The notes below the pieces were generated by a model, which saw only the letters and a program-made list of their open reading frames with translations, had not been told where the DNA came from and did no database searches. Below are positions 16,128 through 60,442 of a stretch of 64,000 nt of DNA, piece after piece. The stretch's first letter is position 1. Each line of letters begins with the position of its first letter. The stretch is taken from positions 1 through 64,000 of the forward strand of contig JACRHT010000011.1 in the NCBI GenBank assembly GCA_016217545.1. The letters run 5' to 3'. The position numbers and the translations under genes are program-made. This DNA is from Opitutia bacterium (lineage in GTDB: Bacteria > Verrucomicrobiota > Verrucomicrobiia > Opitutales > Opitutaceae).

Positions 16128-16237
16128 TCGCTCCACGGGATACACCCGCGGCGGAAAGGCAACCCTCCGAAAGCCCCGCCGCGCCGCGCGCCGGGAACAC
16201 CGGCGACCTTCGCCCGCGGCGCACGAGGTTCCGGCGC

Positions 16238-17285: not shown

Positions 17286-17798
17286 ATGATCCGCCTGTTC
17301 CTGCTCGCACTGTGCGCGCTCTCCCTGTCCGGCTGCGGCAAAACCGATCTCGCCAGCACGATCGTCCACGCCGCTTCGGAAGATGAACTCGCCAGCGGCC
17401 GCGCCGAGCTCGCCGCGCGCTTCGGCAACGACGCGCTCGCCTCCTACGACGTGGCCATCCAGGAGCTGCAACTCGCCGGCATGGACCGCGGGGTGGCTGC
17501 AGCCGCCGATCGCGCCACGGCGATGCGCGCGACCGTCAATGGCAAAACCGTCCGCACCGTCGAGATCCTCGGCTGGCAGGCGCGCCGCACTCGCCTGCAG
17601 GGCGAGATCAAGGAATTCGCCGCCATGCTCGAGCGCGACCTCGCGCTGCGCGAAAAAACCGCCGCCACCGGCACGTCGCAAACGGTGATTCATCGCATCG
17701 AGAACGAGCAGGACATCCTCGCCAAACTCCGCCGCCTGCTCGACGAAGCGGACGCGAAAATCCGCGGCTGGCAGGCCGCTCCTGGCCCCCAGCCGTAA
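17286..17798 (+). CDS. Small lipoprotein, coiled-coil rich
   Basis: 170 residues with a lipoprotein signal ending LSLSGC (Cys17). The mature part is almost all alpha-helical with regular Leu/Ala heptads (RAELAARFGNDALASYDVAI, then EIKEFAAMLERDLALREKTA and a last DILAKLRRLLDEADAK). It is probably a periplasm-facing lipoprotein. The gene converges with the ABC permease gene, leaving 21 bp between the stops. No family was recognised. Confidence 0.7.
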   Translation: MIRLFLLALCALSLSGCGKTDLASTIVHAASEDELASGRAELAARFGNDALASYDVAIQELQLAGMDRGVAAAADRATAMRATVNGKTVRTVEILGWQARRTRLQGEIKEFAAMLERDLALREKTAATGTSQTVIHRIENEQDILAKLRRLLDEADAKIRGWQAAPGPQP

Positions 17799-17819
17799 GC
17801 CGGTTCCGCTTCCGCGCGA

Positions 17820-20258
17820 CTATTCCGCGGTCATGGCCACCAGCGGACTGACCTTCGCCGCCCGCCGGGCGGGAATCCAACAGGCGAAAAGTCCCACGAC
17901 CAACAGGAGCGCGACCGCTGCGGCCAGCGTCAGCGGATCGTGGGGGCTCGTCTTGTAGAGTTGCGCCGCGATGAGGCGGGACAGTGCCAGCGCGACCAGC
18001 ACGCCCAGCCCCGCACCGCGCATCATCAGGCCCATCCCCTCGCCCAGCACCTGTCGCAGGATCGTCCCGATTTCCGCGCCGAGCGCCATCCTCACGCCGA
18101 TCTCGCGGGTTCGTTGCGCGACCCCGTAAGCCATCACCGAGTAGATGCCCGCCATCGTCAGCAGGAGCGCCGTGCCGGTCAGCACGCCGACGATCACGAG
18201 CGTGAAACGCCGCACGGACAGCGAGCGATCCGCCACCTGCTCCAGGGTGAGCACCGAAGCGACGGGAATCGACGCGTCCATCGCCTTCAGCTCGCGGCGG
18301 AACGCCGCCTCGAGCGTCGACGCCGGCAACGAGCCGCGCAGCAGCCAGTAGGTGCGCAACCGGATCCACGGCACGGCCGGCGGCTCCATCTGATGAAAGG
18401 GCACGTAGAGGTCGAACGTCGGCTCGTCGTCGAGCTTCCCCTGTTTCACGTCATCCACGACGCCCACGATCTCGAACTTCCGCCGCCCGTCCGCCCGGTC
18501 CTCGATCTCCAACACCTGGCCCACCGCCTCCTGATCCGGGAAGTGCTTTCGCGCCAGCGTCGCTCCGATCACGACGACGAGCGGATGAGCGAGGTCGTCG
18601 GTCTCGGCCAGAAACCGCCCGGAACGCAAGCGCACGCCCAGCGCCTCGAAGAAGCCCGGCGTCACGAGACGATAGTTCGCATTCGGCAGCTCCACGCCTG
18701 CACGCTCCTCGTCCGTCGCGCGTTTGAAGCGTGTCGTCGCGAGCCCGGGCGCCAGCGGCAGCAGCGAGGTGGCGCCCACCGCCTCGACTCCGGGAAGGGC
18801 CGCAAGTCGCGAGCGGAACTCGCGTTCGAACCGCCACAGCGCCTCGCGATCGGGGTAACCCACCTCCGGTTGCGAGACACGCGCGGTGAGCGTGCGCGCC
18901 GGATCGGCGCCCGGCCGTTCGAGTCCGACGGCGAGGAAGCTGCGCAGAAACAGCCCGCTGCACGCCAGCAGGGCGACGGCCAACGCGATTTGCACCGTCA
19001 CCAGCCAGCGCCGCGAGCGATTCAGGCCCGGCCCTCCGGTGCTGCCCCGCGTCGAGGTCTGGATCGCATCGCGCAAATCGGTCCGCGAAAACGACCACAA
19101 CGGCAGCAGCGCCGGCAGCGTCCCGGCCGCCAGCGACACCAGCAGCGTGAACGCGAGCACCGGGCCGTTGAAACCGATCTCCGTCGCGCGGGGCACGCCC
19201 GCCGGCAGCAACGCCAGCAGCTTCGCCAGCCCGACATGGGCGAGCAACCCGCCGGCCGCGCCGCCCGCCACCGTGAGCACGAGGCATTCCGCGAAGAGCA
19301 ACCGCAGCAGCTGGAAGCGCGAGCTCCCGAGCGCCGCACGGATCGCCAGCTCGCGCCGCCGCCCGATGCCCCGCACGAGCAGCAGGCCGGCGAGGTTCGC
19401 GCACGCGAGCAGAAGCAGCGACGCCACCAACCCCCACAGCGTGCCGAGCACCGGGCGCACATCCCCCGAAATCTGGGTCCCCAGCGGCACCAGCACATTC
19501 GCGCCGAAGCGGCCGTAGGTTCCGGGCAGTTCCCGGCGCAACGCGGCCAACACGCCACCGAGATCGGCCAGCGCCTGTTCCGGCCGCACCGCGGGCAACA
19601 GGCGCCCGACGACCACGAGCGAATGCACGCCGTTGTGATTGCGCCGCGTCGCGTCGAGTTCGGGCTGCAGCGGCACGACGACGTCCTTGTTGAAGCCGTT
19701 CAGCGGCATCACGAACCCCGCGGGAAAAACGCCGACGATCGTGCGCAGTTCCCCGCTGAGCCGCACCACGCGACCGATCGCCTCGTCGCGCCCGCCGAAG
19801 CGCGCCTGCCAGAACTCATGGCTCACCACCGCGACCTTCGGCGCTCCCGCCGCCTCGTCGTCCGCGTTCAGCAGGCGACCGCGGACCGGCTTGACGCCGA
19901 GGAGGTCGAAAAGACCCGGCGACACGCGGAGACCCTGCACCAGCTGCGCCTCGCCCCCATCGACCAGGTTGGTGTTGAACGAGCCCAAGGCGACCAAGCC
20001 CGCAAACGAGCGCGCGCGATCGCGGTATTCGCAGAACTCCGCGAGATTGAACAAGCCGACCTCGCTGGCGGCCCCGGATCGGACCGTGACGAGTTCCTGC
20101 GGGCGGTCGTAGGGCAGCTCACGCAACAGCACCGCTTCCACGACGGAAAACACCGCCGTGTTGGCACCGATGGCGAGCGCGAGAATGAGGATGAAGGCGA
20201 GCGAAGTCCCGGGTGTCTTGGCCAGGCTGCGAAGGGCAAACTTGAGGTCGTGGATCAT
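17820..20258 (-). CDS. ADOP-type ABC transporter permease (duplicated FtsX/MacB domains)
   Basis: 812 residues with two repeats of the MacB_PCD-periplasmic domain plus FtsX permease unit. It starts MIHDLKFALRSLAKTPGTSL with the first membrane helix near residue 20. A second MacB-like start occurs near 415 (RRWLVTVQIALAVALLACSG). Each FtsX part has three helices, so about eight helices in all. The C-terminal half contains the conserved E-I-G-V-R-M-A-L-G-A loop that couples to the ATPase. The size and duplication match the ADOP permeases of Acidobacteria and Verrucomicrobia. No ATPase is adjacent, as is usual for this group. The substrate is unknown; drug, lipoprotein or peptide export are possible. 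Confidence 0.9.
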   Translation of the reverse strand: MIHDLKFALRSLAKTPGTSLAFILILALAIGANTAVFSVVEAVLLRELPYDRPQELVTVRSGAASEVGLFNLAEFCEYRDRARSFAGLVALGSFNTNLVDGGEAQLVQGLRVSPGLFDLLGVKPVRGRLLNADDEAAGAPKVAVVSHEFWQARFGGRDEAIGRVVRLSGELRTIVGVFPAGFVMPLNGFNKDVVVPLQPELDATRRNHNGVHSLVVVGRLLPAVRPEQALADLGGVLAALRRELPGTYGRFGANVLVPLGTQISGDVRPVLGTLWGLVASLLLLACANLAGLLLVRGIGRRRELAIRAALGSSRFQLLRLLFAECLVLTVAGGAAGGLLAHVGLAKLLALLPAGVPRATEIGFNGPVLAFTLLVSLAAGTLPALLPLWSFSRTDLRDAIQTSTRGSTGGPGLNRSRRWLVTVQIALAVALLACSGLFLRSFLAVGLERPGADPARTLTARVSQPEVGYPDREALWRFEREFRSRLAALPGVEAVGATSLLPLAPGLATTRFKRATDEERAGVELPNANYRLVTPGFFEALGVRLRSGRFLAETDDLAHPLVVVIGATLARKHFPDQEAVGQVLEIEDRADGRRKFEIVGVVDDVKQGKLDDEPTFDLYVPFHQMEPPAVPWIRLRTYWLLRGSLPASTLEAAFRRELKAMDASIPVASVLTLEQVADRSLSVRRFTLVIVGVLTGTALLLTMAGIYSVMAYGVAQRTREIGVRMALGAEIGTILRQVLGEGMGLMMRGAGLGVLVALALSRLIAAQLYKTSPHDPLTLAAAVALLLVVGLFACWIPARRAAKVSPLVAMTAE

Positions 20259-44950: not shown

Positions 44951-45075
44951 GGCGGCAGAGTTGCGCCGCGTTCTCCGCGGTCAACGCCCCGCCCGCCTCG
45001 GACCGCTACACCGCCCGCACGACTCATTGGATACATCGATTGCGCTGCGAGGCGCTTTGCCTCAAGTTGCCGTCC

Positions 45076-47964
45076 GTGCCAGCCGATAAGGGAGCATTGC
45101 CTCATTCATTCGTGCGCCGCAACCGCGTGATGCCGTGGCTATGCTCGCTGGTGGCGGGCATGGCGGGGCTGGGCATTAATCAATTCGGATTGCCGATCTT
45201 CGGCGGCACCGAACTCATCTTCGGCGGCTGGCTGCCCTTGCTCGTGACGTATGCGTTTGGCGGACTGCCCGGCACGCTGGCGGCGGCGATCGCGTTCGGC
45301 CTGACCCCGCTCTCGTGGGGACACCCGTGGGGACTGTTCTGTTTTGGACTGGAGCCTCTGTTCGTCAGCTGGCTGATGCCGCGACTGCGAGGAAGGCTCC
45401 GCGCCAGCGCCGCCTATTGGCTGTTCATCGGGATTCCGATGGTCGCCGTGGGCGTCTTCGTGCTGTCGAATTTTCCGTTCCCGAGCAACTGGGCGGTGGT
45501 TCTGAAATACCCCGCAAACAGCCTGCTGATGATCATGATCGCCGTGCCGGTCTACCACAGTCCGTGGAGCCGCCGCTGGCTGGGCACGATCACGAACGAA
45601 CCCGCCCTGCCGTTGCAGCGCGTGCTTTTCCAGCGATTCGGCGTGATCGTGGCCCTCACGATCGCCGTCCTCGCCATCCTCGTCGGCCGCAATTTCGACC
45701 AGACACTGCGCAACGTCGCGGAAACCGCGCTCGCGCGCGACGCCAAGGAGGCCGCCCGCGACATCGGCAACGACCTCACCGATCACCGGCGCGCGCTCTC
45801 TCTCGCCGTGCGTCAGACCAGCGCGAACGCGACACCCGAGGAACTCGCGCAACGCCTCGAGACGCTGCGGAGCGAATTCGGCGGCTTCCTCACGCTCCTC
45901 GCCGCCGACACACGCGGCGAGATCATCGCGGCCGCCCCCGCCACCAGCGCATCGGGCGAACCGCTCGCGCATCGCGGCATCTTCATCACGGACCGGCCCT
46001 ATTTCCGCGAGCCCATGACCAACGGGCGGCCGTTCATGAGCGAGGTATTTCAAGGACGCGGTTTCGGCGGCGACCTGATCGTCGCAGTCAGCGCGCCCGT
46101 GCTCGACGCGCGCGGCCAGCCTACCTTGCTCCTCGAAGGTTCGCTGAAACTCAGCGCGCTGCTGGAATTCAAACCACCGCCCGGCTATCTGCGCGGGCGC
46201 AGCCTCCTGTTGCTCGACCACACCGGGCGCGCCGTCGCCGGCAGCGGTGTGCTCGCACACGCTGCCTTGACCGATCTCACGAACGACCCCGTGGTCGTCG
46301 CCGGTCGGCGCGCGGGCGAACAAGCCTACGTGGTCGACCTGGCGTCGAGCCAACACGGCCGGGAACGCTACGTCGTCGCCCGCGCGGTCGTGCCCGGTTG
46401 CAACTGGCAGGTTTACCTGACGGAGCCGATTTGGAGCACGCAGCGCCTCATCGCCGCCTACTACCTGGCGACATTCGTCGCGGCCGGCGTGGCCGTGGGC
46501 ATCGCCTTGCTGCTCGCGCGCATCACCGCCGCCGACGTAACCGGACCGCTCAACCGGCTCGTCGTTTCCATCCAGGCGCTCGCGCGTCAGGAAACGGTCG
46601 CGCCGTTCCCGACCGAGAATCTGTCGGCCTCGCGCGAACTCGCGGAACTCGGCCTCGCCGCCCATGAGGCCGCGCTCTTGCTCAGCCGCGCCAACCGCGA
46701 ACTCGCCGTCTCGCTCGACGAACAAAGCAAGACCCACCAGCAGCTCCGCCAGGTCCTGCTCCACCTCGACGACAAGGTCCGCCAGCGCACCGAACAGCTC
46801 GAGGAAGCCCGCCAGCAGGCCGAGTCCGCCAACCGCGCCAAGAGCGAGTTCATCGCCAGCACCAGCCACGAACTGCGCACGCCGCTGAACGTCATCCTCG
46901 GCATGGCCGAGGTCCTCCTCGAGCGCACGCTCGGCGACCTCAACCCGCGGCAGCACGAGAGCGTCGCCGCGATCGAGGAAAGCGGCCGGCATCTCCTCTC
47001 CCTCATCAACGACATCCTCGACCTCTCCAAGATCGAGGCCGGCAAACTCGACCTCGACATCCAGGAGACCGAGGTGCGCAGCACCTGCGAGGCCAGCCTC
47101 CGCTTCGTCCGCAACGCCGCGCAACGCAAACAGCACACCCTCGAATTCGAGTGCCCGGCGGACCTCGCGCCCATCGCCGCCGATCCCCGCCGCCTGAAAC
47201 AGATTCTCGTCAACCTGCTCTCGAACGCCGTGAAGTTCACGCCCGACGGCGGCCGCGTGCGCTTCGAAGTCGTGCCCCACACCGATCCGGCCGAGGTTCA
47301 TTTCCGCGTCATCGACACCGGCATCGGCATCACGCCCGAGCAGCAAGCCCGGCTCTTCCAACCCTTCCAGCAAATCGACGGCGCGCTCAACCGCCGCCAC
47401 GGCGGCACGGGCCTCGGCCTCGTGCTCGCCCGTCGCATGGCGGAATTGCACGGCGGCCGCATCACCCTCGAAAGCGTCGCCGGCAAAGGCAGCTGCTTCT
47501 CCGTCATCCTTCCCATGCGCGCCGTCGAAAAGCCCGTGCCGCGCGCTCCCACGCTCGCCCCCTCGCCCGCCTACGCCGCCCCGGCCGGCACCCACGTGCT
47601 CATCGCCGAGGACAACGACACCAACGTCCTCATCTACCAGCGCAGCCCGATCTTCGCCGCGTGCCGCTTCAGCTTCGCCCGCAACGGCCAGGAAGCGATC
47701 ACCGCCGCGCTCGCCGACCGCCCCGACCTCATCCTCATGGACGTCCAGATGCCCGTGATGGACGGCCTCACCGCCACCCGCCGGCTCCGCGCCGATCCGC
47801 GCACTGCCGACATTCCGATCATCACCGTCACCGCCCTCGCGATGACCGAGGACCGCACCCGCTGCCTCGAAGCCGGCGCCACCTCCTATCTCAGCAAACC
47901 CGTCAACCTGCGCGAACTCGCCCGCCACGTCGCCGAGGCACTCACCCGGCCCGCCCAATCATGA
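45076..47964 (+). CDS. Hybrid sensor histidine kinase with receiver domain
   Basis: 962 residues from a GTG at 45076; an ATG at 45130 would remove 18 residues. Six hydrophobic helices occupy the first 175 residues and a further helix lies near 195. The extracytoplasmic region is Cache-like ([40 protein letters not shown]). A helix near 465-485 and a HAMP-like region follow. The kinase core has [14 protein letters not shown] with His598, and the ATPase has [20 protein letters not shown] and [20 protein letters not shown]. The receiver has Asp889 ([13 protein letters not shown]) and Lys in SYLSKPVNL. The stimulus is unknown. The next gene starts within the stop codon. Confidence 0.92.
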
Positions 47965-49421
47965 AGCCCCAATCCACCATCCTCGTCGTCGACGATGAGC
48001 CGCGCGCGCTCGCGCTGCTCCGCAACGTCATCGAGCCCGAGGGCCATCGCGTCCTCACCGCGCACGACGGCGCCAGCACCCTCGCGCTCGCCGAGAAGGA
48101 GCACCCGGACGCCATCGTGCTCGACGTCATGATGCCCGACATGGACGGCTTCGAAGTTTGCCGCCGCCTGCGCGCGACCCCCGAACTCGCCACCGTCCCC
48201 ATCCTGCTCCTCACCGCCCTCGACGATCGCGAATCGAAACTCCAAGGCCTCGAGGCCGGCGCGGACGACTTCCTCACCAAACCCTTCGACGCCGTCGAGC
48301 TGCGCATCCGCCTCCGCACCATCTCGCGCCTCAATCGCTACCGCCGCCTCTACGAGGAAACGTCCCGTTACGAGGCGGCCATCACGCACTCGGAAGAAGG
48401 CATCGTCCTCGCCGAACTCGACGGCACGATCATCCTCCGCAATTCCGCCTTCACGCACCTCGTGCAACCGACCCACGCGGCGCAACCGAACTTCTTCGAG
48501 TATTTCTCCGCCGAGAACGCCGCGGTGCTGCGCCACGACGCAGGCCCGGCCCCCACATTGCGGCCGACCGAAATGGAACTCCTCCACGGCCGGGCCGAGC
48601 CCACCATCGTCGAAGTCACCGCCGGGCTCGTGCCGTGGGAACGTCGCACCCTCGTGCAATACCACGTCCGCGATCTCACGGAGAAGAAGAGCCTCGAGGC
48701 GCAGCTGCTGCGTTCGCAACGCATCGAGCTGCTCGGCCAGCTCTCCGGCAGCGTCGTGCACGACATGAACAACGTCCTCGCCGCGATCGGCGGCAGCGCC
48801 GGCCTGATCGAGCTCGATCCATCGGGCAAGTTCGTGCCCCGGCACCTCGACAACATCAAGAAGGCCGTCCAGCGCGGCGCCGGCATGCTCCGTCAGTTGC
48901 TCCACTTCGCGCGCGGCAGCGACGGCCCGCTCGAAACCACCAGCCCGGCGGAAGTCGCCGGCGAGGTCGCCACGCTCGTGAAGGAATCGTTCGGCGGGCA
49001 CTTCGAGGTCAGCTTCACCGCCGAGCCGGACCTGCCGGCCATCCGCGCCGATTCGACCCAGATTCACCAGATCCTGATGAACCTGTGCGTGAACGCCCGC
49101 GACGCCATGCCCGACGGTGGCCCGCTGGAACTCGGCGTGTCCCGACGCACGCTGACCGCCGCCGACCTCGCCGGCCTCGGCCCCGACGTCCGCGCCGGCG
49201 ACTACGTCGTGCTCTCCGTGCGCGACCACGGCACCGGCATCCCGCCCGAGGTTCGCGCCCGCCTCTTCGATCCGTTTTTTACCACCAAGCCCAAGGGACA
49301 AGGCACCGGCCTCGGCCTCGCCACCGTCCTGCGCCTGGTCCGGCGCCACGGAGGCTACGTCCAGCTCGAGACCGAAGTCGGCAAGGGCACGGCCTTCCAC
49401 TGCGGCTTTCCCGTCGCCTAG
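47961..49421 (+). CDS. REC-PAS-histidine kinase (phosphorelay intermediate)
   Basis: 486 residues, starting in the ATGA overlap (47961-47964) with the hybrid kinase, so the two are translationally coupled. A receiver domain comes first ([20 protein letters not shown]; Asp55 in [35 protein letters not shown]). A PAS-like part follows ([20 protein letters not shown]). The kinase part has [20 protein letters not shown] with His267, then [20 protein letters not shown] and [20 protein letters not shown]. No membrane segment is present. It may receive phosphate from the hybrid kinase and pass it on. Confidence 0.92.
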
Positions 49422-49510: not shown

Positions 49511-50176
49511 ATGAAATCCTCGCGTATCCTCATAGTCGATGACGACCAGCTCACTCGAGATATGCTCGAGGGCTGGTGCCTGCATTGCGGAGCCCATTGC
49601 GTGACCGCCGGTTCCACCGCCGAGGCCGACGAAGCCCTTTCGATCGGAACGTTTGACGCCATCATCTGCGACGTCCACCTGCCCGGCAACCGACAGCTCG
49701 GCTGGGTTCGCCAGATCGTCGCCCAAGAAACTTCTCCCGCGGTCATCATGATGACCGGAAATCCCGAGCTGGAATCGACGCTCAGCGCCGCCAACCTCGC
49801 CGTGGCCGGCTATCTCGTAAAGCCGCTGAATTTGGTCATGCTGCGCGAACTCGTGATCAGCATCGTCGACAACCGCCGCCAACAGCGCGCGCTGGTCAAC
49901 CTCTCTCACGCCACGGCCCAGCTGCTCGTCGCCGCCCGCAACAACGACGGCGGGCAAGACGACCAGCTGCAGGACCACCTTCTGCGACTCGCCCAGCAGC
50001 TGCAGGCGCAATCGACCGTTCCCCGCACGGGAACACTCGTCGTCCCGCTCCGCGAATCCGTCGCCGAAGCCATTGCCGTCCTCGAGCGCACGAAGCACAG
50101 CTTCCGCTCCAAGGACCTCGGCGAACTCCGCCGCCGCCTGCAACAAACGCTCGACACCGTCCGCATCTCCGCCTGA
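49511..50176 (+). CDS. Single-domain response regulator with helical C-terminus
   Basis: 221 residues. Residues 5-120 are a receiver: RILIVDDDQLTRDMLEGWC, phospho-acceptor Asp54 in AIICDVHLPGN, VIMMTGNPELESTL, and Lys in GYLVKPLNL. The C-terminal 95 residues are helical and Gln-rich (RLAQQLQAQSTVPR) with no DNA-binding motif. It follows the kinase gene by 89 bp and precedes the chemoreceptors. It could be the output of the two kinases, perhaps acting on the motility or chemotaxis machinery; that is inference. Confidence 0.88.
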   Translation: MKSSRILIVDDDQLTRDMLEGWCLHCGAHCVTAGSTAEADEALSIGTFDAIICDVHLPGNRQLGWVRQIVAQETSPAVIMMTGNPELESTLSAANLAVAGYLVKPLNLVMLRELVISIVDNRRQQRALVNLSHATAQLLVAARNNDGGQDDQLQDHLLRLAQQLQAQSTVPRTGTLVVPLRESVAEAIAVLERTKHSFRSKDLGELRRRLQQTLDTVRISA

Positions 50177-50322
50177 GCGCGACCGGAACCTCCGAGCGGG
50201 CGCGGATAAATTCCTGCGCGCATCGGGAATTTCCCTAAACCGTCCGCCCGGGCGGCCGAAATTGAGCGCGAACACATTCGCATCCTTCGCGGGTGCTTGG
50301 TCCCCCCACCAACTCACACTCC

Positions 50323-52302
50323 ATGCTCCTGTCCCGTCCTCGGGGCTTCCAAGGGAAGCTCCTGCTCGGTCTTGTCGTTGTCGGTTTGCTCCCCCTGCTT
50401 GCGATCTCCGTTTCGGCCCTTCGCTCGGTCGATAAGCTGAACAGCGCGATTGGCCGCACCCACCAAGGCTTCAGTCACGACGCGATTGCGATGATCGATC
50501 GCAATCTCTTCGAACGCTACGGCGACGTCCAAGCCTTCGCGCTCAACCACGCCCTGCGCGACCGCTCGCAGTGGCACCAGCCCGGCGCCACCCGCAACAG
50601 CATCGCCGCCGCCATGAACGGCTACGTGCGCCTCTACGGCTTCTACGCCCTCACGCTCGCCGTCGACCTCGAGGGCCGCGTCATCGCGGTCAACGACCTC
50701 GACCCCGCCGGCAAACCCATCGACACCGCGCCGCTCTACCAGCGTAATTTCAAGGACGACCCTTGGTTCGCTGCCGCTCTGCGCGGCGATTTTCTCAAGA
50801 GCCGCACCCTCGACGGCACGCACGTCATGGGACCGTGGTTCGACGACGACGTCGCGCGCCTCAACGGCAACGACGGCTTCGTGCTCGGCTTCACCGCGCC
50901 GATCAAAGACGAAACCGGCAAAGTCATCGGTCTCTGGCACAACCGCGCCAACTTCTCCTTCGTGGAGGAGATCCTGCTCGCCGGCCACGCCGAGCTCGAG
51001 CGTCGCGGCTACCAATCCGCCGACCTGCGCCTCCTCGACGGCGAGGGCCGCGTCCTCGCCCTCTACGATCCGCACGGCAGCGGCGAGAGGGAATTCCGCC
51101 GCGATCGCCAGATCGTGCTGCGCGAAAATCTCGTCGCGCAAGGCATCGAAGCCGCCCGGCGCGCCAGCCAGGGCGAGTCTGGCGTCACCCGCTTCGTCCC
51201 GCCCGGCGAAGAGGAGGAACACGTCGCCGGCTACGCTGGCTCCACCGGCGCCCTAGGTTTCCCCGGCCTGCATTGGTCCGTCATCACCGCCGTCAAAATC
51301 AGCGAAGCCGACGCCGAGATCTCCGCCACGCGCCGGGCGCTCTGGATCGTCGCCGCGATCAGCGTCGCCGTCCTCGCCGCCGCCGCGCTGCTCATCGCGC
51401 GCTCCCTGAGCCGTCCCGTCCTCGCCGCGCTCGAACAAATCCGCGGCGGCACCTCCGAGATCTCGTCCGCCGCGCATCAACTCTCCGGCTCCGCCGAATC
51501 GCTCGCCAAGGACTCCAGCTCCCAAGCCGCCGCCCTCGAGGAAACCGCCGCCGCCCTCGAGGAGATGTCCAGTCTCACCAAGCGCAACGCCGAGATCGCC
51601 CAACAGGCCCAAGCCGCCGCCACCGCCGCGCGCGCCGCCGCCGACACCGGCGCCGGCCAGATGAAATCCATGCAGGAGGCGATGCTCGAAATTCAGGGCG
51701 CGAGCGACGAAATCACGAAAATCCTCAAGACGATCGACGAGATCGCCTTCCAGACGAACATCCTCGCGCTCAACGCCGCCGTCGAAGCCGCCCGCGCGGG
51801 CGAAGCCGGCGCCGGCTTCGCCGTCGTCGCCGAGGAAGTCCGCGCCCTCGCCCAACGCTCCGCCGTCGCCGCCCGCGAAACCGCCGAGCGCATCGACGCC
51901 TCGCGCGGCAAGAGCCACCAAGGCGTCGCCATCTCCACCTCCGCCGCCACCAGCTTCTCGCGCATCCAGGACGAAATCCGCCGCCTCGACGAACTCGTCG
52001 CCGAGATGGCCACCTCCTCCCGCGAGCAAAGCCGAGGCATCGTCGAAGTGAACAGCTCCGTCACGCTCATGGACAAGGTTACCCAGGCCAACGCCGCCAC
52101 CGCCGAGGAAAACGCCGCCGGTGCCGAGGAGCTCAACTCCCAAGCGGCCACTCTGCGCCAAACCGTGAGCCAGCTTTTCGTGCTCATGGGCGGGCAGCGT
52201 TTCCGTTCCGAGCCCGCCGACGAACCGGACGCTCCCCACGCGGAACCGACCGTGTCCGCCGCCACTTCGCCCCACTCGCCGGCCGCCCTCCCAACCGTCT
52301 GA
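50323..52302 (+). CDS. Methyl-accepting chemotaxis protein with Cache-type sensor
   Basis: 659 residues. It has an N-terminal membrane helix (about 12-30), a large periplasmic sensing region (about 40-340) with [40 protein letters not shown] and [20 protein letters not shown] that fit a dCache-type fold, and a second helix near 345-365. No clear HAMP is visible. The cytoplasmic signalling hairpin tip, [20 protein letters not shown] then [20 protein letters not shown], is near residue 473. The methylation helices are Ala/Ser/Glu-rich. Its tip DNA is identical over 108 bp to that of the next chemoreceptor. It senses an unknown ligand and signals to CheA, which is not in the window. Confidence 0.9.
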
Positions 52303-52464
52303 CCTGGCGGACTTTCGCCTAAAGCTCCGCACCGCGCGGCCGATGACCGAGAGATAGCGTTGCGGTGTGCCCCAGCACGACCGCCAGATTCGGGCTCGCT
52401 TCAGGCGCGCAAGGATCGGGAGCGACGCTTGGGCACGTTCTCGTGCCGGCCCGTCGCATCCCTG

Positions 52465-54030
52465 ATGAAATCTCTGTCTCTCGCCCAACGCATCTCCCTT
52501 GGCTTCGCCGCCGTCATCGCAGTCACGCTGATTCTCGGCGCCATTTCGCTGAACCGCTTCTTCGCGGTGTCGTCCGCCGGCACCTACCTCGCCACCGACC
52601 CGGTGCCCGGCACGGTCGCCATCTTGAAGATCAACGCCGAGTTCGAAACCCAACTCGGCCTGCTGCGCGAATACATCTTCACGCCCGACCGCCCAAAGAT
52701 CGCCGGGGAATACAACGAGCAGGTCGGCCGAGTGAAGAAGGTGCTCGCCGCCTATGACGTCACCATCACCGCGGCGGACGATCGGGCGATGTTCGACGAA
52801 TTGACGAAGGACTACCGCGAATTCTCCGCCGCCGCCGCCGAAATCATGACGATGGTCGATGCGGGCCGCGCGCAGGAGACGCTCAAGACGATCGACGAAC
52901 GCCTTGAGCCGATCTTCGAGCACATGGAAGCCCAACTGGCGAAACTCATCGCGTTCAACGAATCGAATCTCTCGAACGGCGTCCGCAACATCACCGAGAC
53001 CGCGGCGAGCGGAAAGAAATTCCTCGTCGGCGGCATCCTCATCGCGATCGCCGCCGCGATCGGCATCGCGTGGTTCATCACCCGCTCCACCAACCGCGCG
53101 CTGCACTCCATTGCGGAGCGTCTCGCCGCGGGCGCAGAACAAACCGCCGCCGCCGCCGGCCAGGTCTCCAGCTCCTCCCAATCCCTCGCCGAGGGCGCCA
53201 GCGAACAAGCCGCCTCCCTCGAGGAAACCTCCGCTTCGCTCGAGGAAATGTCCTCGATGACGAAGCGCAACGCCGACAACGCCGGCCAGGCCAAGGACCT
53301 TTCCTCGCAGACTCGCGCCGCCGCCGACACCGGCGCCGCCGACATGACCGAGATGAAGTCCGCGATGGACGCCATCAAACTCTCCTCCGGCGAAATCGCG
53401 AAGATCGTGAAGACGATCGACGAAATCGCCTTCCAGACAAACATCCTCGCGCTCAACGCCGCCGTCGAAGCCGCCCGCGCGGGCGAAGCCGGCGCCGGCT
53501 TCGCCGTCGTCGCCGAGGAAGTCCGCGCCCTCGCCCAACGCTCCGCCACCGCCGCAAAGGAAAGCGCCGGCAAGATCGAGGACTCCGTCAACAAGAGCGA
53601 ACACGGCGTCCGCATCTCCGGCAAAGTCGCCGATTCGCTCCAGCAGATCGTCGATCGCGCCCGCCGCGTCGACACGCTCGTCGGCGAGATCGCCTCCGCG
53701 TCCTCCGAGCAAAGCCAGGGCATCGTGCAAGTGAACCACGCCGTGTCGCAGATGGACAAGGTCACCCAAAGCAACGCCTCCGCCGCCGAGGAATCCGCCG
53801 CCGCCGCCGAAGAGCTCAACGCCCAGTCCGCCGAGGTCCAGCACCTCGTCCACGAATTGCTCCAGCTGATCGGCGGCCAGGCTCGCGACAACGGGAAGTC
53901 GCAGACTTCACACTCCGCCGCCGCGAAACCCGCCGGCGCGCCTCACCGCGCCCAGCGCCCCGCCCACACCGCGGCGAAGCTCACCCGCCACACCGAGCCG
54001 GCGCACGCCGAGGCGTTCATCGACGGCTGA
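52465..54030 (+). CDS. Methyl-accepting chemotaxis protein with four-helix-bundle sensor
   Basis: 521 residues from the ATG at 52465 ([20 protein letters not shown]). A first helix (10-32) precedes a mostly helical 150-residue periplasmic part, as in four-helix-bundle receptors, then a second helix (about 180-202) and a cytoplasmic signalling region. The tip [20 protein letters not shown] starts near residue 319. Methylation-type stretches ([20 protein letters not shown]) flank it. A His/Ala/Thr-rich tail ends EAFIDG. It is 162 bp after the previous chemoreceptor and 48 bp before a microprotein gene. Confidence 0.9.
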
Positions 54031-54078
54031 TCTCCAATCCGTTTTCCCGCCGCCTTCGCCTCTTCCTCCACGCCTGCA

Positions 54079-54261
54079 ATGTCTCTCTCCCACTCTTCCC
54101 ACGCCCACGCCGCCCACGCAAAGCCGGCGTCTCCCGCCGGCAAGCCCATCCCCGCCGGACACGTTGCCGTGGTCTGTCCGGCCGGCTTCAACGCCACGAG
54201 CACCAAGAACGTCGACCCGAAGAAAGCCGTCTACGCGCGCGTCATCTACCGGCCGCATTGA
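54079..54261 (+). CDS. Chemoreceptor-linked microprotein, copy 1
   Basis: 60 residues. A disordered His/Ala/Ser/Pro start is followed by a short conserved part: VAVVCPAGFNATST then K-x-x-V-Y-A-R-V-I-Y. After C-P-x-G-F it aligns without gaps to the microprotein at 58178-58396 over 23 residues, with Ser, Lys, A-R-V and Y in the same positions. It is 48 bp downstream of a chemoreceptor gene, same strand. The single Cys could bind metal or form a disulphide. The family is unknown to me. Confidence 0.6.
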   Translation: MSLSHSSHAHAAHAKPASPAGKPIPAGHVAVVCPAGFNATSTKNVDPKKAVYARVIYRPH

Positions 54262-54285
54262 GCCACGCTGCGGCGCTGCGGTGCA

Positions 54286-54303
54286 CGCGAGGCCGCCCTC
54301 GCG
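54286..54303. terminator. Short hairpin between convergent genes
   Basis: A perfect seven-base stem CGCGAGG / CCTCGCG with a CCGC loop lies between the stops at 54261 and 54306. It lacks a T-run, so factor-independent termination is uncertain. Confidence 0.35.
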
Positions 54304-54305
54304 GC

Positions 54306-55046
54306 TCAGGGCTTTCCGCCGAGCAGTTTCTTGATTCCCTCGCCGGCCTTCTGCGCAGCCTCCTTCGTTTTTTCCAACGAAGTCGCGCCCGCCGTGCCGG
54401 CCACATTGCCAAGCGCCTGCGCGGTGCCGCTCACGATGCCGCCCAACACCGAGCGCATGACGGCGCCCGCCGCCTGATCCGGCGTGATGCCGCCCTCGGC
54501 TGTGCCGAGATTGTCGATCGCGATCGGCGGGAGCGGCACCGGCACCGCCGCCGGTCCCACGCCGAGGCGCGCCACGCCATTCGTCAGGCGAAATTTCTTG
54601 ATCTCAAATTTGATCGGTTTGCCGTCCTTCGCCACCGGCTCCTTCGCGTCCTTGCGGCCGGAGAACTGCTCGATGTTCTTCAGCAGGTCCTTGATGTTGC
54701 TCGAGACGATCTTCGTCTCGTAGAGAAATTCCGGACCGTCGATCGTGATTTCCTCGATGATGATGTGGTCGCCGAACAGCGACATCGGCTGGATGTCGAC
54801 GTGCACCTTGCCGAGCTTGAAGGCATCGCTGTCCGACCAGCCCTTCGGATTGCCGACCGCGAGGCCGTGGAGCGTGCCCGAGCCCGTGAGGGGCGAGATG
54901 GAGGCGCTGGCCAACTGCACCTTCGTCTGGGTGAGCCGCGGCCCGAAGGCGTTCACGCCCGCCTTGACGATGGAGCCGAGGAAGAACATCGCGCCGACAT
55001 AGAGCACGACGACGAGCAGGAGGGCGATCAGCAGGAATTTTTTCAT
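54306..55046 (-). CDS. AsmA-like / exported protein with N-terminal anchor
   Basis: 246 residues from the ATG at 55046 (MKKFLLIALLLVVVLYVGAM). One N-terminal helix anchors it. The rest is beta-rich (KVQLASASISPLTGSGTLHG; LAVGNPKGW; LGKVHVDIQPMSLFGDHIII; EEITIDGPEFLYE), like the repeat units of AsmA/DUF748-type periplasmic proteins. A Gly/Ala/Lys-rich helical tail follows (SLEKTKEAAQKAGEGIKKLL). AsmA-like proteins are linked to phospholipid transport to the outer membrane; this short version is assigned only by pattern. Confidence 0.6.
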   Translation of the reverse strand: MKKFLLIALLLVVVLYVGAMFFLGSIVKAGVNAFGPRLTQTKVQLASASISPLTGSGTLHGLAVGNPKGWSDSDAFKLGKVHVDIQPMSLFGDHIIIEEITIDGPEFLYETKIVSSNIKDLLKNIEQFSGRKDAKEPVAKDGKPIKFEIKKFRLTNGVARLGVGPAAVPVPLPPIAIDNLGTAEGGITPDQAAGAVMRSVLGGIVSGTAQALGNVAGTAGATSLEKTKEAAQKAGEGIKKLLGGKP

Positions 55047-55105
55047 GGCGGTGGAGATTGAACAAATCCCACTCACGCCCCGCCGCAAGCCGCGACGTCG
55101 GCCGC

Positions 55106-55801
55106 TCAGATCGCGTCGGCCCCGGTCGCGTCGACGAGGCGATAGCCGCCGGGGACCGTGCGGATCCAGCGCGGATTGCCGGAATCGTCGCCGATCTTCT
55201 GCCGCAGGCGCCAGATGTGCGTGTCGACCGTGCGGGTCGCCGCCGTGGACGAGTAGCCCCAAACCTTCTTCAGCAATTCATCGCGCAGCACCGCGCAGCC
55301 GTGGCTGGCCCGCAACTGCTCGATCAACTTGAACTCGATCTGCGTCAGCGCGAGCGGCTGCCCATCCTTTTCCGCGGTGCGGGCGGCCAGGTCGATGCGG
55401 ACGGAGCCAAGCTGGATCACCTCCTGTTGCTTCGTGCCGCGGGCGCGGCGCAGCACGGCATTCACCCGCGCCAGCAACTCGCGCAACGCGCACGGCTTGC
55501 TCACAAAATCGTCCGCACCGCTGCTCAGCGCGCGCACGATATCGTCGGTGCCGTCGGCGCCGGTCAGCATGATGATGCCGCCGCGAAAGCCGCGATCGCG
55601 CAACTCCTGGAGCGTGCGCCAGCCGTTCTGCCGCGGCATGTCGATGTCGAGCAGCACAAGGTCCGGCGCGATGCGGTCCGCTGCCGCGACACCTTCCTTG
55701 CCGTCGGGCGCCTCCGTCACGGTGTAGCCAGCGCAGCGCAACGCCTCGGCGGTCGTCTCGCGGAGCACCGCGTCGTCATCGATAAGAAGCAGGGAATTCA
55801 A
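55106..55801 (-). CDS. OmpR/PhoB-type response regulator
   Basis: 231 residues taken from a TTG at 55801 (LNSLLLIDDDAVLRETTAEA). No ATG precedes the receiver; a GTG at 55876 would add 25 odd residues, so the true start is uncertain. The receiver has Asp52 (APDLVLLDIDMPRQNGW) and Lys in FVSKPCAL. The C-terminal winged helix shows LTQIEFKLIEQLRASHGCAV, LLKKVWGY, RTVDTHIWRLRQKIGDDSGN and IRTVPGGYRLV. It is a DNA-binding regulator without an adjacent partner kinase. Confidence 0.92.
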   Translation of the reverse strand: MNSLLLIDDDAVLRETTAEALRCAGYTVTEAPDGKEGVAAADRIAPDLVLLDIDMPRQNGWRTLQELRDRGFRGGIIMLTGADGTDDIVRALSSGADDFVSKPCALRELLARVNAVLRRARGTKQQEVIQLGSVRIDLAARTAEKDGQPLALTQIEFKLIEQLRASHGCAVLRDELLKKVWGYSSTAATRTVDTHIWRLRQKIGDDSGNPRWIRTVPGGYRLVDATGADAI

Positions 55802-56478
55802 GGCAGCCCGATCGTTGAGGGTGAAAATCGTCGCGGGCCCACGCGAGTTAAGAGCTTTGTGACAAGCTCGTGACACAGGTTGTCCGCGAACGGGCCGCTA
55901 TTTCGAGTAGATTTTACCGCGCGCCTCTGGCGTGCGACACCCCTCCCTCTCCCGTCGCCATGAACTCCGGCCTCTTCGCCATCGCTTGCTGCGTCCTCTC
56001 CGACGCGACGCCGACCGCGGTCAGGTCCGCCGAACACGGAACGGTCTCGACTTTCACTCGCGCCGAAGGAGCGCCGCGCGCGGGCATGTTGCACGGCGAG
56101 GCGCGGGTGTCGTCCGCCACCGCGCTGGTGGACTCTCTTTTTCTCTCCGGTGCCGCATCGGCATCGGACCAATTTGCCTGACAGGGGCAATGCAGCACCC
56201 GGTCGTCGGGGGACACCGGGTGCTGCCCTCCTGTCGGGGGCAATCTCACGCGCAAAGACCGCTCGGAAAGCGCGCATCCGGACTGCGTCCGGAGAACGGC
56301 CCTGGCCCCGAGCAGAGCCGAACGACACTAGCCGCCACCCGCATTCGGAAACAGCGACGACACTATTAGTCCCGTTACAACTTCGCCACTACACTGGGCG
56401 GGAAACCGCGCCGATCAAACAGAGAGAATCGCCCGCAAACACGGGAGATCGTCTCAACCCCAACCCCACGGACCTGTC
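55802..56478. promoter_or_regulatory. Long leader / promoter region between divergent regulator and chemoreceptor
   Basis: 677 bp with no well-supported gene. A frame at 55961-56181 could encode a Cys-containing peptide with an N-terminal MNSGLFAIACCVLSDATP, but evidence is weak. A strong hairpin with arms GCAGCACCCGGT and ACCGGGTGCTGC (56192-56203, 56214-56225) lies inside the 297-bp leader before the haem chemoreceptor. It has no T-run and may be a terminator-like or regulatory RNA element. A second small hairpin (CCGGA/TCCGG) follows near 56278-56292. Confidence 0.45.
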
Positions 56479-58107
56479 ATGAAACTCGGAACCAAAATCG
56501 TGCTCGCGAGCACGGTCGCGATCCTTCTCACCGTCGCGAGCGCGCTTTTCGTTCAACGCAGCATCATCCAGAAGCAGGGCGTCGACATGACGCTTGAGAC
56601 CATGCGCGCCGCTGTGGTCGAAGCGGAGAACGTCCGCGAGAGCATTTCCAAACTCGGCGAGGGCGGAGCCTTCGATCGCGCCAAGCTCCTCGCCGAATAC
56701 AAAGCCTCCGGCGATCTTCGCGGCTCCACGCTCTATCGCACCATTCCCGTCGTCGCCGCGTGGGAAGCGGTCGCGAAGGCCGCCAAGCAGGCCGGCTTCG
56801 AATTCCGCGTGCCGAAGAACAGCGCCCGCAATCCGCAGAACAACCCCACGCCCGACGAAGCGGACATTCTCCGCCAGCTCGAGACCGGCACCCTCGCCGA
56901 ATACATCCGCGTCGATCGCGCCGCCAACGAGATCGTCTACGCCCGTCCGATCAAACTCACGCAAGACTGCCTCGCGTGCCACGGCGACCCGGCGAAGAGC
57001 GCCAGCGGCGACGGCAAGGACTTCCTCGGTTTCCGCATGGAAAACTGGAAGGCCGGCGAAGTGCACGGCGCCTTCGTGCTGAAAACCAATTTTGCCCACG
57101 TCGACGAAGTCGTTCGCGCCGGCATGCTCCACAGCCTCGCGTGGGTGCTGCCCGTCACCGGGCTCATGGGCTTGTGCTTCTACGCACTCAACCGCCGGCT
57201 CGTCGTCGCGCCGCTTTCCGCTTCGATCGCCAGCATCCGCGCCGCCTCCGAAGAAACCAATTCCGCCGCCCACCAGATCTCCGTCGCCAGCGCCGGCCTC
57301 GCCAGCGGCGCCAGCGAGCAGGCCGCCTCGCTCGAGGAAACTTCCGCGTCGCTCGAAGAGATGTCCTCGATGACCAAACGCAACGCCGACCACGCCAGCT
57401 CCGCGCGTTCCACGGCCGGCACAGCCCGGCAAGCCGCCGACGCGGGCCACGAGCGCATGCAACAGATGCAAGGTGCGATGCAGTCCATCGAACAAGCCAC
57501 GCAGGACATCACGAAAATCCTGAAAACGATCGATGAGATCGCGTTTCAAACGAACATTCTCGCGCTGAACGCCGCCGTCGAAGCCGCCCGTGCGGGCGAG
57601 GCGGGCGCCGGTTTCGCTGTCGTCGCCGAGGAAGTCCGCGCCCTGGCCCAACGCTGCGCCACCGCCGCCAAGGAAACCGCCACCAAGATCGACGACTGCG
57701 TGCAGAAGAGCCACCACGGCGTGCAGATCAGCACCGACGTCGCCGGCAGTTTCGACGAGATCCAGAAGCACGTTCGCCAACTCGAGGCGCTGATCAGCGA
57801 GATCGCCACGGCCTCGACCGAGCAAAACACCGGCATCCAACAGGTAAATTCCGCCGTGTCGGACATGGACCGCGTCACCCAAGGCAACGCCGCCCACGCC
57901 GAGGAGACCGCCGCCGCCGCCGCGGAACTCGACGCGCAAGCCCAAGCGCTCGATCGCGCCATTTCCGATGTCCGCCGCGTGATCGGCGGCGATATCGAAA
58001 CCGACGCCACCCGCCACGCGCCGCAGAAAAACCCTCCCTCCGCCCCTCGTTCCGGCGCGCCTGCGGCGCATCAGCCGCGTCCGAAGCCGGACACGCACTT
58101 TGTCTGA
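56479..58107 (+). CDS. Methyl-accepting chemotaxis protein with haem-binding DUF3365 sensor
   Basis: 542 residues. A first helix (8-27) is followed by a periplasmic sensor of about 190 residues with the haem motif C-L-A-C-H at 164-168 inside IKLTQDCLACHGDP. Flanking sequence (EFRVPKNSARNPQNNPTPDE; EIVYARPIKLTQDCLACHGD; WKAGEVHGAFVLKTN) matches the DUF3365/Tll0287-like domain. A second helix (about 218-238) is followed by the signalling region with tip [20 protein letters not shown] near 352. The haem may sense oxygen, NO or redox state. A microprotein gene follows 70 bp later. Confidence 0.92.
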   Translation: MKLGTKIVLASTVAILLTVASALFVQRSIIQKQGVDMTLETMRAAVVEAENVRESISKLGEGGAFDRAKLLAEYKASGDLRGSTLYRTIPVVAAWEAVAKAAKQAGFEFRVPKNSARNPQNNPTPDEADILRQLETGTLAEYIRVDRAANEIVYARPIKLTQDCLACHGDPAKSASGDGKDFLGFRMENWKAGEVHGAFVLKTNFAHVDEVVRAGMLHSLAWVLPVTGLMGLCFYALNRRLVVAPLSASIASIRAASEETNSAAHQISVASAGLASGASEQAASLEETSASLEEMSSMTKRNADHASSARSTAGTARQAADAGHERMQQMQGAMQSIEQATQDITKILKTIDEIAFQTNILALNAAVEAARAGEAGAGFAVVAEEVRALAQRCATAAKETATKIDDCVQKSHHGVQISTDVAGSFDEIQKHVRQLEALISEIATASTEQNTGIQQVNSAVSDMDRVTQGNAAHAEETAAAAAELDAQAQALDRAISDVRRVIGGDIETDATRHAPQKNPPSAPRSGAPAAHQPRPKPDTHFV

Positions 58108-58177
58108 GCGACCAGGGCCAATCGGCAGAATCGCTTAAACTTCCGCGCCTTTCGGCCGATGTCCTGACTGGCCCATC

Positions 58178-58396
58178 ATGCAAGATTCCGCCGCCACCTC
58201 CTCTTCGCCCTCACCGGCTCCCTCACCATTCGATGAAGAAGAGGTCGTCGCCATGAGCGCCTCGCACATCGTCATCCACGCGCCGAAAGGCCGCTACATT
58301 ACGATCATGTGCCCCGTGGGTTTCTCGCCGGGCAGCGTCGAAGGCATCGGCCTCGATAAACCGCTGTTCGCGCGCGTCCGCTACCTGGCCTGCTGA
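58178..58396 (+). CDS. Chemoreceptor-linked microprotein, copy 2
   Basis: 72 residues from the ATG at 58178, or 47 from 58253. The conserved end reads ITIMCPVGFSPGSV then K-P-L-F-A-R-V-R-Y. This aligns without gaps to the 54079 microprotein after C-P-x-G-F. It is 70 bp downstream of the haem chemoreceptor on the same strand. The N-terminus is Ser/Ala/Pro-rich and disordered. Confidence 0.55.
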   Translation: MQDSAATSSSPSPAPSPFDEEEVVAMSASHIVIHAPKGRYITIMCPVGFSPGSVEGIGLDKPLFARVRYLAC

Positions 58397-58558
58397 TTTC
58401 CGGCCCGAGCGCCGTTTTCCGTCTCGTCACGCCGTCGCTCACCCGCGGCTACCCGCGAGACCCTGCCCGACACTGACGGCTTGCCACGCCGCCGCGCGGG
58501 CTCTCTGTAGGTTGCGCAACGTCCACGCGTGCGCACTCGGCGTTCGCCTTGGCCGTCG

Positions 58559-58590
58559 CCCGTCCTCCGTCCTCCGTTTTCCGTCTCCGA
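58559..58590. repeat. Heptamer repeats just upstream of parE start
   Basis: About four units of consensus TCCGTCC/T end four bases before the parE start codon, so they occupy the Shine-Dalgarno position. The unit matches the arrays at 29891-29959. Confidence 0.65.
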
Positions 58591-58594
58591 AAAA

Positions 58595-60442
58595 ATGGCA
58601 TCCAATTACACCGAAGCCAGCATCAAGACCCTCAGCTCCCTCGAGCACATCCGCCTGCGCCCCGGCATGTATATCGGGCGCCTCGGCAACGGCACGCACG
58701 CCGAAGACGGCATCTACGTCCTGCTCAAGGAAACGATCGATAACTCGATCGACGAGTTCACGATGGGCGCAGGCAAGAAGATCGAGGTCGAGATCGACGA
58801 AGAGCGCCGCCACCTCCGCGTGCGCGACTACGGCCGCGGCATCCCGCTGGGCAAGCTCGTCGACTGCGTCTCCATCATCAACACCGGCGCGAAATACGAT
58901 TCCGAGACCTTCCAAAAAGCCGTCGGCCTCAACGGCGTCGGCCAGAAGGCCGTCAACGCCCTCGCGCTGAACTACCGCGCCCAGGCCTTCCGCGACGGCG
59001 AGACCAAGGTCGTCGAATTCGAGAAGGGCAAACTCAAGTCGCAGTCCAAGGTCACGAAATCCGACGAGCGCAACGGCACGCTGATCGAGTTCACGCCCGA
59101 CGCGCAGCTCTTCGGCGCCGACTTCCGCTTCCGCCTCGAGTTCATCGAGGACATGCTCTGGAACTACGCCTTCCTCAACCGCGGGCTCACGCTCACGCTC
59201 AACGGCAAACCGTTCCGCTCGGAAAACGGCCTCAAGGATCTCCTCACCAAGGAACTCTCCGGCGAGCCGCTCTACCCGATCATCCACCTCGAAGGCGAGG
59301 ACATCGAAGTCGCATTCACGCACGGCAACCACTACGGCGAAGAATATTGGTCCTTCGTCAACGGCCAGCACACGACCATGGGCGGCACGCACCTCGCCGC
59401 CTTCCGCGAGGCGCTGGTCGAGACCGTGCGCAACCACTTCAAGAAGGACTTCGACGCCGCCGACGTCCGCCAGTCGATCGACGCCGCCGTCGCCGTCCGC
59501 GTGCAGGAGCCCGTCTTCGAATCGCAGACGAAAACCAAACTCGGCTCCACCGACATGGGCCCGAAAGGTCCGTCGCTGAAGGAATTCGTCGGCAAGTTCA
59601 TGCAGCAGTCGCTCGACGTCTACCTGCACAAGAACCGCGAGGTCGCCGAAACCATCAAACGCAAGATCGAGGAGAACGAACACGAGCGCAAAGAGCTCGC
59701 CGGCATCCGCAACATCGCCCGCGAACGCGCGAAAAAAGCTTCGCTGCACAACCGCAAGCTCCGGGACTGCCGCCTCCACCTCGGCGACCGCAACGAGCGC
59801 GCCGAGCAAAGCACGCTCTTCATCGTCGAAGGCGACTCCGCCGCCGGCTCGCTCACCTCGTGCCGCGACGTGCAGACGCAGGCCGTCTTCGCCCTGAAGG
59901 GCAAGCCGCTCAACACCTACGGCCTCTCGAAGAAAGTCATCTACGAGAACGAGGAATTCCACCTCCTTCAATCCGCGCTGAACATCGAGGAAGGCATGGA
60001 CGGCCTCCGCTACAACCGGATCGTCATCGCCACCGACGCCGACGTCGACGGCATGCACATCCGCCTGCTGCTGATCTCGTTTTTCCTCCAGTTCTTCCCC
60101 GACCTCATCCGCAACGGCCACCTCTTCATCCTCGAGACGCCGCTCTTCCGCGTCCGCAACAAGCGCAAGACGATCTATTGCTACGACGAGCGCGAGAAGC
60201 AGAAGGCCATCGCCGAACTCGGCGCCGGCCACGAGATCACGCGCTTCAAAGGCCTCGGCGAAATCTCCTCGGGAGAGTTCAAGGACTTCATCGGCGAAAA
60301 CATCCGCCTCGAGCCCGTGAATCTCAACCACCTCTACAGCTCCGAGGAACTGCTCGCGTTCTTCATGGGCAAGAACACGCCCGAGCGGCAGGACTTCATC
60401 ATCGACAACCTCCGCGTCGAGAAGGACCTCGTCGAGGTCTGA
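58595..60442 (+). CDS. parE: DNA topoisomerase IV subunit B (ParE-type)
   Basis: 615 residues from the ATG at 58595. The GHKL ATPase has [25 protein letters not shown] and [20 protein letters not shown], with [14 protein letters not shown]. The middle part is the transducer ([33 protein letters not shown]). The TOPRIM part has [31 protein letters not shown] (catalytic Asp pair) and RFKGLGEIS. The length and lack of a large C-terminal insert suit ParE better than most GyrB proteins. It decatenates or supercoils DNA with a ParC-type A subunit. The next gene is convergent, so a parC does not follow here. Confidence 0.9.

Follow-up and report, generated by a model that had tools for sequence, protein, structure and literature searches.

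Why should two very small genes, each the first one behind a chemoreceptor gene, encode proteins that share a C-P-x-G-F motif? The question is raised by a 64,000-nucleotide (nt) stretch of an Opitutia bacterium, referred to here as the window (positions 1-64000 of contig C11 of genome G000, which comprises 5.09 Mb in 17 contigs), in which two short open reading frames follow genes for methyl-accepting chemotaxis proteins (MCPs). We found that the genes of microproteins A and B are real and conserved at the protein level, and that the two belong to a small new family. Moreover, a leader RNA conserved as a structure precedes one of the two receptor genes, further receptor genes in the family and, in another genus, a microprotein gene itself. 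The four genes in question are as follows, with dN/dS denoting the ratio of non-synonymous to synonymous substitution rates and G006 and G007 being other genomes of the family.

52465..54030, + strand: MCP2, chemoreceptor with a 4HB_MCP_1 sensor (PF12729, PF00015), directly 5' of microprotein A
54079..54261, + strand: microprotein A, 60 amino acids (aa), core HVAVVCPAGFNATSTKNVDPKKAVYARVIYRPH, ATG start; orthologue in G007 with 74% identity; dN/dS 0.20
56479..58107, + strand: MCP3, chemoreceptor with a Tll0287-like sensor (PF11845, PF00015), directly 5' of microprotein B
58178..58396, + strand: microprotein B, 72 aa, core YITIMCPVGFSPGSVEGIGLDKPLFARVRYLAC, ATG start; orthologues in G007 (94% identity) and G006 (73%); dN/dS 0.046 against G007

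Two Microproteins Conserved as Proteins

The original prediction described two proteins of 60 and 72 residues that align without gaps for 23 residues after C-P-x-G-F, encoded 48 and 70 base pairs (bp) behind receptors with unrelated sensor domains. Both frames, their residues and the alignment were confirmed, as were the distances from the stop codons of MCP2 (48 bp to A) and MCP3 (70 bp to B), and the sensors are indeed of different kinds (4HB_MCP_1 vs. Tll0287-like). Each protein ends exactly 23 residues past the motif, with Ser, Lys, A-R-V and Tyr in common. The best ungapped block comprises 28 residues with nine identities, and its BLOSUM62 score of 59 exceeds all 5000 values obtained after shuffling one partner (mean 15.6, maximum 57; fitted p ~9e-5). 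A and B are mutual best non-self matches when the 644 open stretches of 50 aa or more in the six frames of the window are compared, and also genome-wide, where their pairwise expectation value (E) is only 0.06-0.08. A profile built from both types (A2) detected a homologue that had not been used in the profile, in G160, a genome of another genus, at E 1.7e-13; the very low E values of the window copies against this profile are by construction.

Altogether, six homologues were found in 4 of 252 family genomes: A and B in G000 and G007, B in G006, which belongs to the same genus as G000, and a single one in G160. All six have the same start Met, one Pro, A-R-V and Tyr and, within the motif, an unchanged C, P, G and F, and the common layout is a low-complexity tail rich in Ser, Pro and Ala followed by a domain of ~35-47 residues that carries C-P-x-G-F and A-R-V-x-Y. 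ATG and stop codons are retained between orthologues. The dN/dS ratios listed above for A and B come from the comparison of G000 with G007, in which the last 47 codons of B show nine changes and 0 non-synonymous ones. Both ratios indicate purifying selection. Third-position G+C of A (0.85) lies within the range of four neighbouring genes (0.83-0.91), and that of B is lower over the whole length (0.78) than in the core (0.87). By inspection, neither protein has an obvious signal or membrane segment, and they are probably cytosolic. A receptor-microprotein fusion by read-through was considered and rejected: A is in the frame of MCP2 in the window and not in G007, and B is in the frame of MCP3 in G006 and not in the window or G007.

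Homologues were sought by single-sequence searches of 57 relatives and by profiles over 252 family, 372 order and 387 phylum genomes, samples that overlap. At E 0.05 or better, 14 of the 252 family genomes gave a match (4 real); at E 0.01, 9 of the 372 order genomes (4 real) and 7 of the 387 phylum genomes (3 real) did so. None of the 19 weak matches (10 + 5 + 4) reaches the conserved Tyr, and ARVxY is present in no printed frame; three of the frames are broken by a stop inside the match and five overlap tRNA-Arg genes. The latter frames (L068-L071 and L077), of the type CPAGFxPTTVRLEG, are false hits of the C-P-x-G-F profiles: they resemble the microproteins in a CPAGF that occurs by chance, and differ from them in lying over tRNA-Arg genes and lacking the ARVxY half. 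Of two scans of wider genome contigs, from which records of close relatives were possibly excluded, the first gave no homologue and the second only the G006 copy; a scan of viral contigs gave none. No Pfam, NCBIfam or PHROGs family matched the microproteins at E 0.001 or better (the best chance matches were xylF, E 0.075, and NADH_oxidored, E 0.28), and no significant relative was found in the PDB. Thus, the original statement that no known family has this motif holds for the libraries searched, to which, as judged by sequence comparison, the microprotein family is new.

A Structured Leader RNA in Front of Receptor Genes

In G160, the microprotein gene lies before its receptor gene, and this exception led to the discovery of the leader RNA. 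The non-coding DNA 5' of the G160 microprotein resembles that 5' of MCP2 in the window and in G007, and that 5' of the G160 relative of another window receptor, MCP1. These four founding copies align over 85 columns and have a common three-way junction, which three of them reach unaided (the G160 MCP1 copy does not). The element is ~82 nt long and is followed by a further hairpin.

52351..52431, + strand: structured leader RNA, three-way junction of helices P1, P2 and P3; belongs to the founding four, with 33 nt between its end and the start codon of MCP2
52432..52447, + strand: P4, a fourth hairpin, 3' of the junction and 5' of the start codon; z -1.1 here

A model of the four copies retrieved four more, in loci fetched around other receptor genes of G000, and in the resulting set of eight, 13 of 25 pairs had changed on both sides. 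The eight-copy model was then searched over 80 of the 252 family genomes, hand-picked, at E 0.01 or better and with strict filters that make the result a lower bound. At least 22 matches in 13 genomes were obtained, 14 of them new, the weakest at E 0.006 (G010). Among 22 distinct copies, 94.2% of 532 cells are paired and 15 of 25 pairs show a change on both sides; double-change cells number 67 vs. 20.1 in shuffles, and 0 of 500 shuffles reach 67, although these counts lean towards the model, to which the alignment was fitted, and the copies are related to one another. When the structure was slid along the alignment, pairing dropped to 26.5-56.9%. For the 30 nt past the junction, folding energy compared with shuffles gives a negative z in 21 of the 22 copies, the mean z being -1.69. 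For 13 of the 22 copies, mean pairwise identity is 0.64 within the element (0.52 shuffled), and 0.54 and 0.56 in the two flanks (0.51 and 0.54 shuffled); the element is clearly alike and the flanks are barely above shuffles, which argues that it is not mere copied upstream DNA. From this evidence, the leader is very probably a real structured cis element.

No Rfam 15 family matches the element in searches of the window and two G160 copies to E 10 and of five further loci to E 1; the one match reported there for the window, at E 7.7, shares a few bases with it. Neither such an RNA nor the microprotein was found in the literature searched, which included main-text word searches of PMC2864571, PMC11109978, PMC8632094 and PMC7266159 and covered the 224 motifs of a 2017 survey as far as these are in Rfam 15. 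Within that scope the leader RNA appears new to Rfam 15 and to the literature.

The first gene behind the eight copies of the model is an MCP gene in six cases, an outer-membrane-like gene followed by an MCP gene in one and the microprotein gene in one. This association is biased, since the loci were chosen near receptors or the microprotein. The 14 copies outside the model, some of which are orthologues of one another, provide an unbiased test: the first gene is an MCP gene in ten, whereas in two (G004 and G007) it is porin- or outer-membrane-like and precedes an MCP gene. In the remaining two, one copy stands at a contig end (G001, C171) and the other precedes a receiver-domain protein with no MCP within 4.9 kb (G196). 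Over all 22 copies, the count is thus 16 with an MCP first, three with an MCP in second place, behind a porin- or outer-membrane-like gene, and one each with the microprotein, a contig end and no MCP. A whole-genome search of G000, which has 20 MCP genes, returned five copies, all known before and all 5' of MCP units. A CheW-like gene, named by inspection, lies 3' of three RNA-headed MCP genes elsewhere in this genome. From the end of the RNA to the start codon, the distance is 32 nt for the G160 microprotein, 41 nt for G160 MCP1 and 34 nt for MCP2 of G007; in other copies it ranges from 27 to ~430 nt (the latter in G126).

Chemoreceptors with an N-terminal carbonic anhydrase domain stand behind the RNA in G000, G007, G008, G006 and G126, as identified by Pfam in G000 and by sequence likeness in the others. 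The G000 gene (contig C15; L167, 166-2652, - strand) combines Pro_CA with MCPsignal, and similar first genes lie behind the RNA in L243, L245, L246 and L253. The terms 'carbonic anhydrase domain' and 'methyl-accepting chemotaxis' were not found together in the literature searched. A porin-like (Alginate_exp) gene lies between the leader RNA and the MCP gene in L244 (3559-4968, - strand), as does a gene that is outer-membrane-like by inspection only in L256 (713-2005, + strand). The outer-membrane-like gene of G000 is likewise named by inspection and has no Pfam match; its G004 counterpart is Alginate_exp. The position of these genes between RNA and MCP suggests that uptake and sensing may be under one control.

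The Sensory Island and the Receptor-Microprotein Pairs

Both receptor-microprotein pairs of the window belong to an island of sensory genes 5' of a gyrase-B-type topoisomerase gene, the other members and neighbours of which are listed here.

45040-47964, + strand: hybrid histidine kinase
47961-49421, + strand: receiver-kinase gene
49511..50176, + strand: response regulator with a receiver domain
50293..52302, + strand: MCP1, chemoreceptor; dCache_1 match below the Pfam cut-off
54306..55046, - strand: DUF748/AsmA-like gene, convergent with microprotein A; a frequent gyrB neighbour in the family
58595..60442, + strand: gyrase-B-type topoisomerase gene, used as the synteny anchor

The kinase and receiver names of the first two genes come from inspection of the translations, without a family search. 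An island of kinase, response regulator and receptor genes occurs 5' of gyrB in G000, G007, G006 and G160, in the order hybrid kinase, kinase, response regulator and receptors. Among 40 family regions 5' of the gyrB-type gene (at most 12 kb long except for one of 19.6 kb, and in several cases ended by contig limits), 24 have DUF748 without a receptor, 13 have neither and 3 have a receptor (G159, G171 and G006). MCP1 is missing from the G007 locus. In G160, the relative of MCP1 (61%) is the sole receptor, MCP2 and MCP3 being absent, and the microprotein gene that adjoins it is situated between the response regulator gene and MCP1. G006 has MCP3 (71%) with microprotein B, and MCP2 (63%) without microprotein A. 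In the latter genome (L117, ~9000-19600), additional kinase and receiver genes, a DUF748 gene and another MCP gene lie between microprotein B and gyrB; thus, the site seems to gather sensory genes.

The non-coding DNA from microprotein B to the gyrB-type gene (58397-58594) looks strongly conserved in the alignment of G000 with G007. About 240 nt 5' of MCP3, at 56180-56235, there is a long inverted repeat, GCAGCACCCGGT / ACCGGGTGCTGC, within GACAGG / CCTGTC. The repeat is kept in G007 with a paired C-G to T-A change and, judging by its sequence, could be a second structured element.

The original prediction also proposed that the same pairing at two separate loci points to a functional link, such as a receptor adaptor or regulator. 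All six homologues do adjoin a chemoreceptor gene on the same strand, and the profile search of relatives that it recommended placed homologues beside receptors in G007, G006 and G160 as well. The same pairing is indeed seen at both window loci; since all six homologues lie in one syntenic island, the two loci are not independent evidence. Position behind a receptor applies to the window loci, and the G160 gene departs from it. The proposed receptor link stands in part: adjacency in six of six cases and the receptors' leader RNA at the G160 gene speak for it, and the single island and the receptors that have no microprotein speak against it. With loci of both kinds, the pairing is best described as stable, not general and not independent between loci.

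A scan of 52200-58650 gave 0 promoter-like sites, and 11 terminator-like sites vs. 6.3 (standard deviation 2.4) in shuffles, none of those listed lying between a receptor and its microprotein.

Discussion

We consider it about an even bet that the combined reading is correct, in which some chemoreceptors have the microproteins as co-regulated accessory proteins and a riboswitch-like leader RNA controls a subset of the receptors. The sharing of the leader RNA by receptor genes and the G160 microprotein points to shared control, and the microprotein would thereby belong to a chemoreceptor regulon. MCP2 and microprotein A are likely carried on one transcript, given the 48-bp gap and the lack of a promoter-like site in the scan. 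Because the RNA ends 32-41 nt before the start codon in four cases, control may be exerted at the level of translation or of the message, and the RNA may affect translation or the fate of the transcript as a leader that is either riboswitch-like or bound by a protein. The microprotein would be made together with the receptors and tune them or the array, for instance by docking on the receptor or on CheW/CheA, perhaps via the invariant Cys-Pro. That the receptor itself is the partner, as gene positions hint, is possible, and we hold it at somewhat less than even.

A number of observations weigh against the combined reading. All microproteins are in one island, so the linkage may be inherited position, and the G160 gene lies 321 bp before its receptor, between response regulator and receptor, not behind one. 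The MCP3 that precedes gyrB in G159 (65% identical overall) has no microprotein, nor has MCP2 of G006, which is 63% identical overall and 44% in the sensor part. MCP3-type sensors are present in 41 of 252 genomes, and a microprotein was found at 3 of 30 fetched loci of this type and at 2 of 7 loci with an MCP2-type sensor. Around 17 other MCP genes of G000 (a few kb each, two stretches ended by contig limits) there is no similar frame, the best profile E being 0.25 among 1329 frames. The RNA, for its part, was found in only 13 of the 80 family genomes searched and at 0 of 31 related receptor loci of other genomes. Even with filters off, no copy was found 5' of the MCP3-microprotein B unit in the window, G007 or G006, yet microprotein B is the better conserved of the two; the same search gave none 5' of MCP1 in the window. 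Only in G160 does a microprotein gene have an RNA copy of its own. Among the founding copies, folding energies are not all unusual (z -1.97, -0.89, -3.02 and +0.36), and 8 of the 22 copies do not form the basal pair of P3. As for the protein, the 47-aa core of B was modelled as four strands with a mean predicted local distance difference test (pLDDT) score of 82.6, this being the best of five models from a shallow alignment of six sequences, and the other four range from 72.0 down to 51.7; the full-length model is poor (mean pLDDT 60.7). No solved fold matches the core model (best Foldseek E 3.0; none at Z 2 by VIA-align). On the strength of this model the domain is probably beta-rich.

The strongest competitor is that the microprotein is a passenger, i.e., an ordinary small gene of this lineage whose product does something unrelated in the cytosol; the gene would have been duplicated once in the island and would adjoin receptors by inherited position. 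The six copies in one syntenic island near DUF748 and gyrB, the existence of receptors with and without a microprotein and the occurrence in only 4 of 252 family genomes are in keeping with it. However, receptor adjacency has been kept despite rearrangement of the island (the absence of MCP1 from the G007 locus and of MCP2 and MCP3 from the G160 region, and the extra kinase genes of G006), and the G160 microprotein has its own copy of the receptor-associated RNA. On balance, we regard this explanation as unlikely, while giving it real weight.

A second alternative, which we hold to be improbable, is that the microprotein is a thiol- or metal/haem-responsive regulator in which the invariant Cys-Pro would sense redox state or bind haem or metal, the signal being passed to the neighbouring kinases or receptors. 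Cys and Pro are invariant in six of six homologues, and MCP3, next to B, has a Tll0287-like sensor with a CxxCH motif (by inspection). There is also a weak profile likeness, over 12 profile positions, to the C-terminal peptide VCPAGWKPGS of peroxiredoxin-4, which we take to contain the resolving cysteine. At E 0.69, however, that match is not significant; one invariant Cys makes no classic metal site, and MCP2, beside A, is of the 4HB type with no haem motif by inspection.

Whether the conserved leader could be a DNA element, such as a promoter or regulator site, instead of a folded RNA was also considered. Its location 32-41 nt before four start codons and the modest folding energies of two of the four founding copies would fit, but the compensatory double changes in 15 of 25 pairs, accompanied by loops of varying length, the unaided folding of three founding copies to the same junction and the wider range of start-codon distances elsewhere make this very improbable. 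Lastly, chance frames in G+C-rich DNA or tRNA shadows have next to no standing as an explanation of A and B, even though 16 kb of this DNA are overlapped by 81 frames of 50 aa or longer and the spurious profile hits in five other genomes overlap tRNA-Arg genes, because the substitution pattern already refutes it, start and stop codons are kept, a homologue exists in a second genus, and ARAGORN found 0 tRNAs in the window, so that the frames are not tRNA shadows.

Returning to the combined reading, the closest parallels among known systems are partial. MgrB, a membrane protein of 47 aa, is reported to inhibit PhoQ (PMC8404706). The microproteins are similar in being tiny and in that they would be produced along with a signal transduction protein, on which they may act; they are set apart from MgrB as described there by lacking an obvious membrane segment on inspection and by being beta-rich in the model. 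CheW-type adaptors would share the site of action if the adaptor reading is true; in contrast, the microproteins are only 60-74 aa long and have neither a Pfam CheW match nor a fold match.

For the RNA, the nearest counterpart is the c-di-GMP-I riboswitch (GEMM, RF01051), a short structured leader with a helix junction that precedes motility and chemotaxis genes. The element described here is likewise a short structured leader before chemotaxis genes with a junction of helices, and differs in matching no Rfam 15 family.

In its most specific form, the proposal is that a new riboswitch-like RNA sets the level of a chosen subset of receptors, together with some porin-like genes, on sensing a signal, and that a microprotein domain of ~45 residues acts on those same receptors, giving two-layer control of entry into the array; this form is tentative, and we think it rather unlikely as a whole. 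The presence of the microprotein behind the same RNA in G160 nevertheless gives a reason beyond neighbourhood to link it with chemotaxis. If the link is true, the microprotein would represent a small receptor-linked protein of a new kind. With 20 chemoreceptor genes, this bacterium must choose which receptors to make, and a folded leader common to receptors with unrelated sensors (4HB, Tll0287-like and carbonic anhydrase fusions) would, if the reading is true, be a direct switch for that choice.

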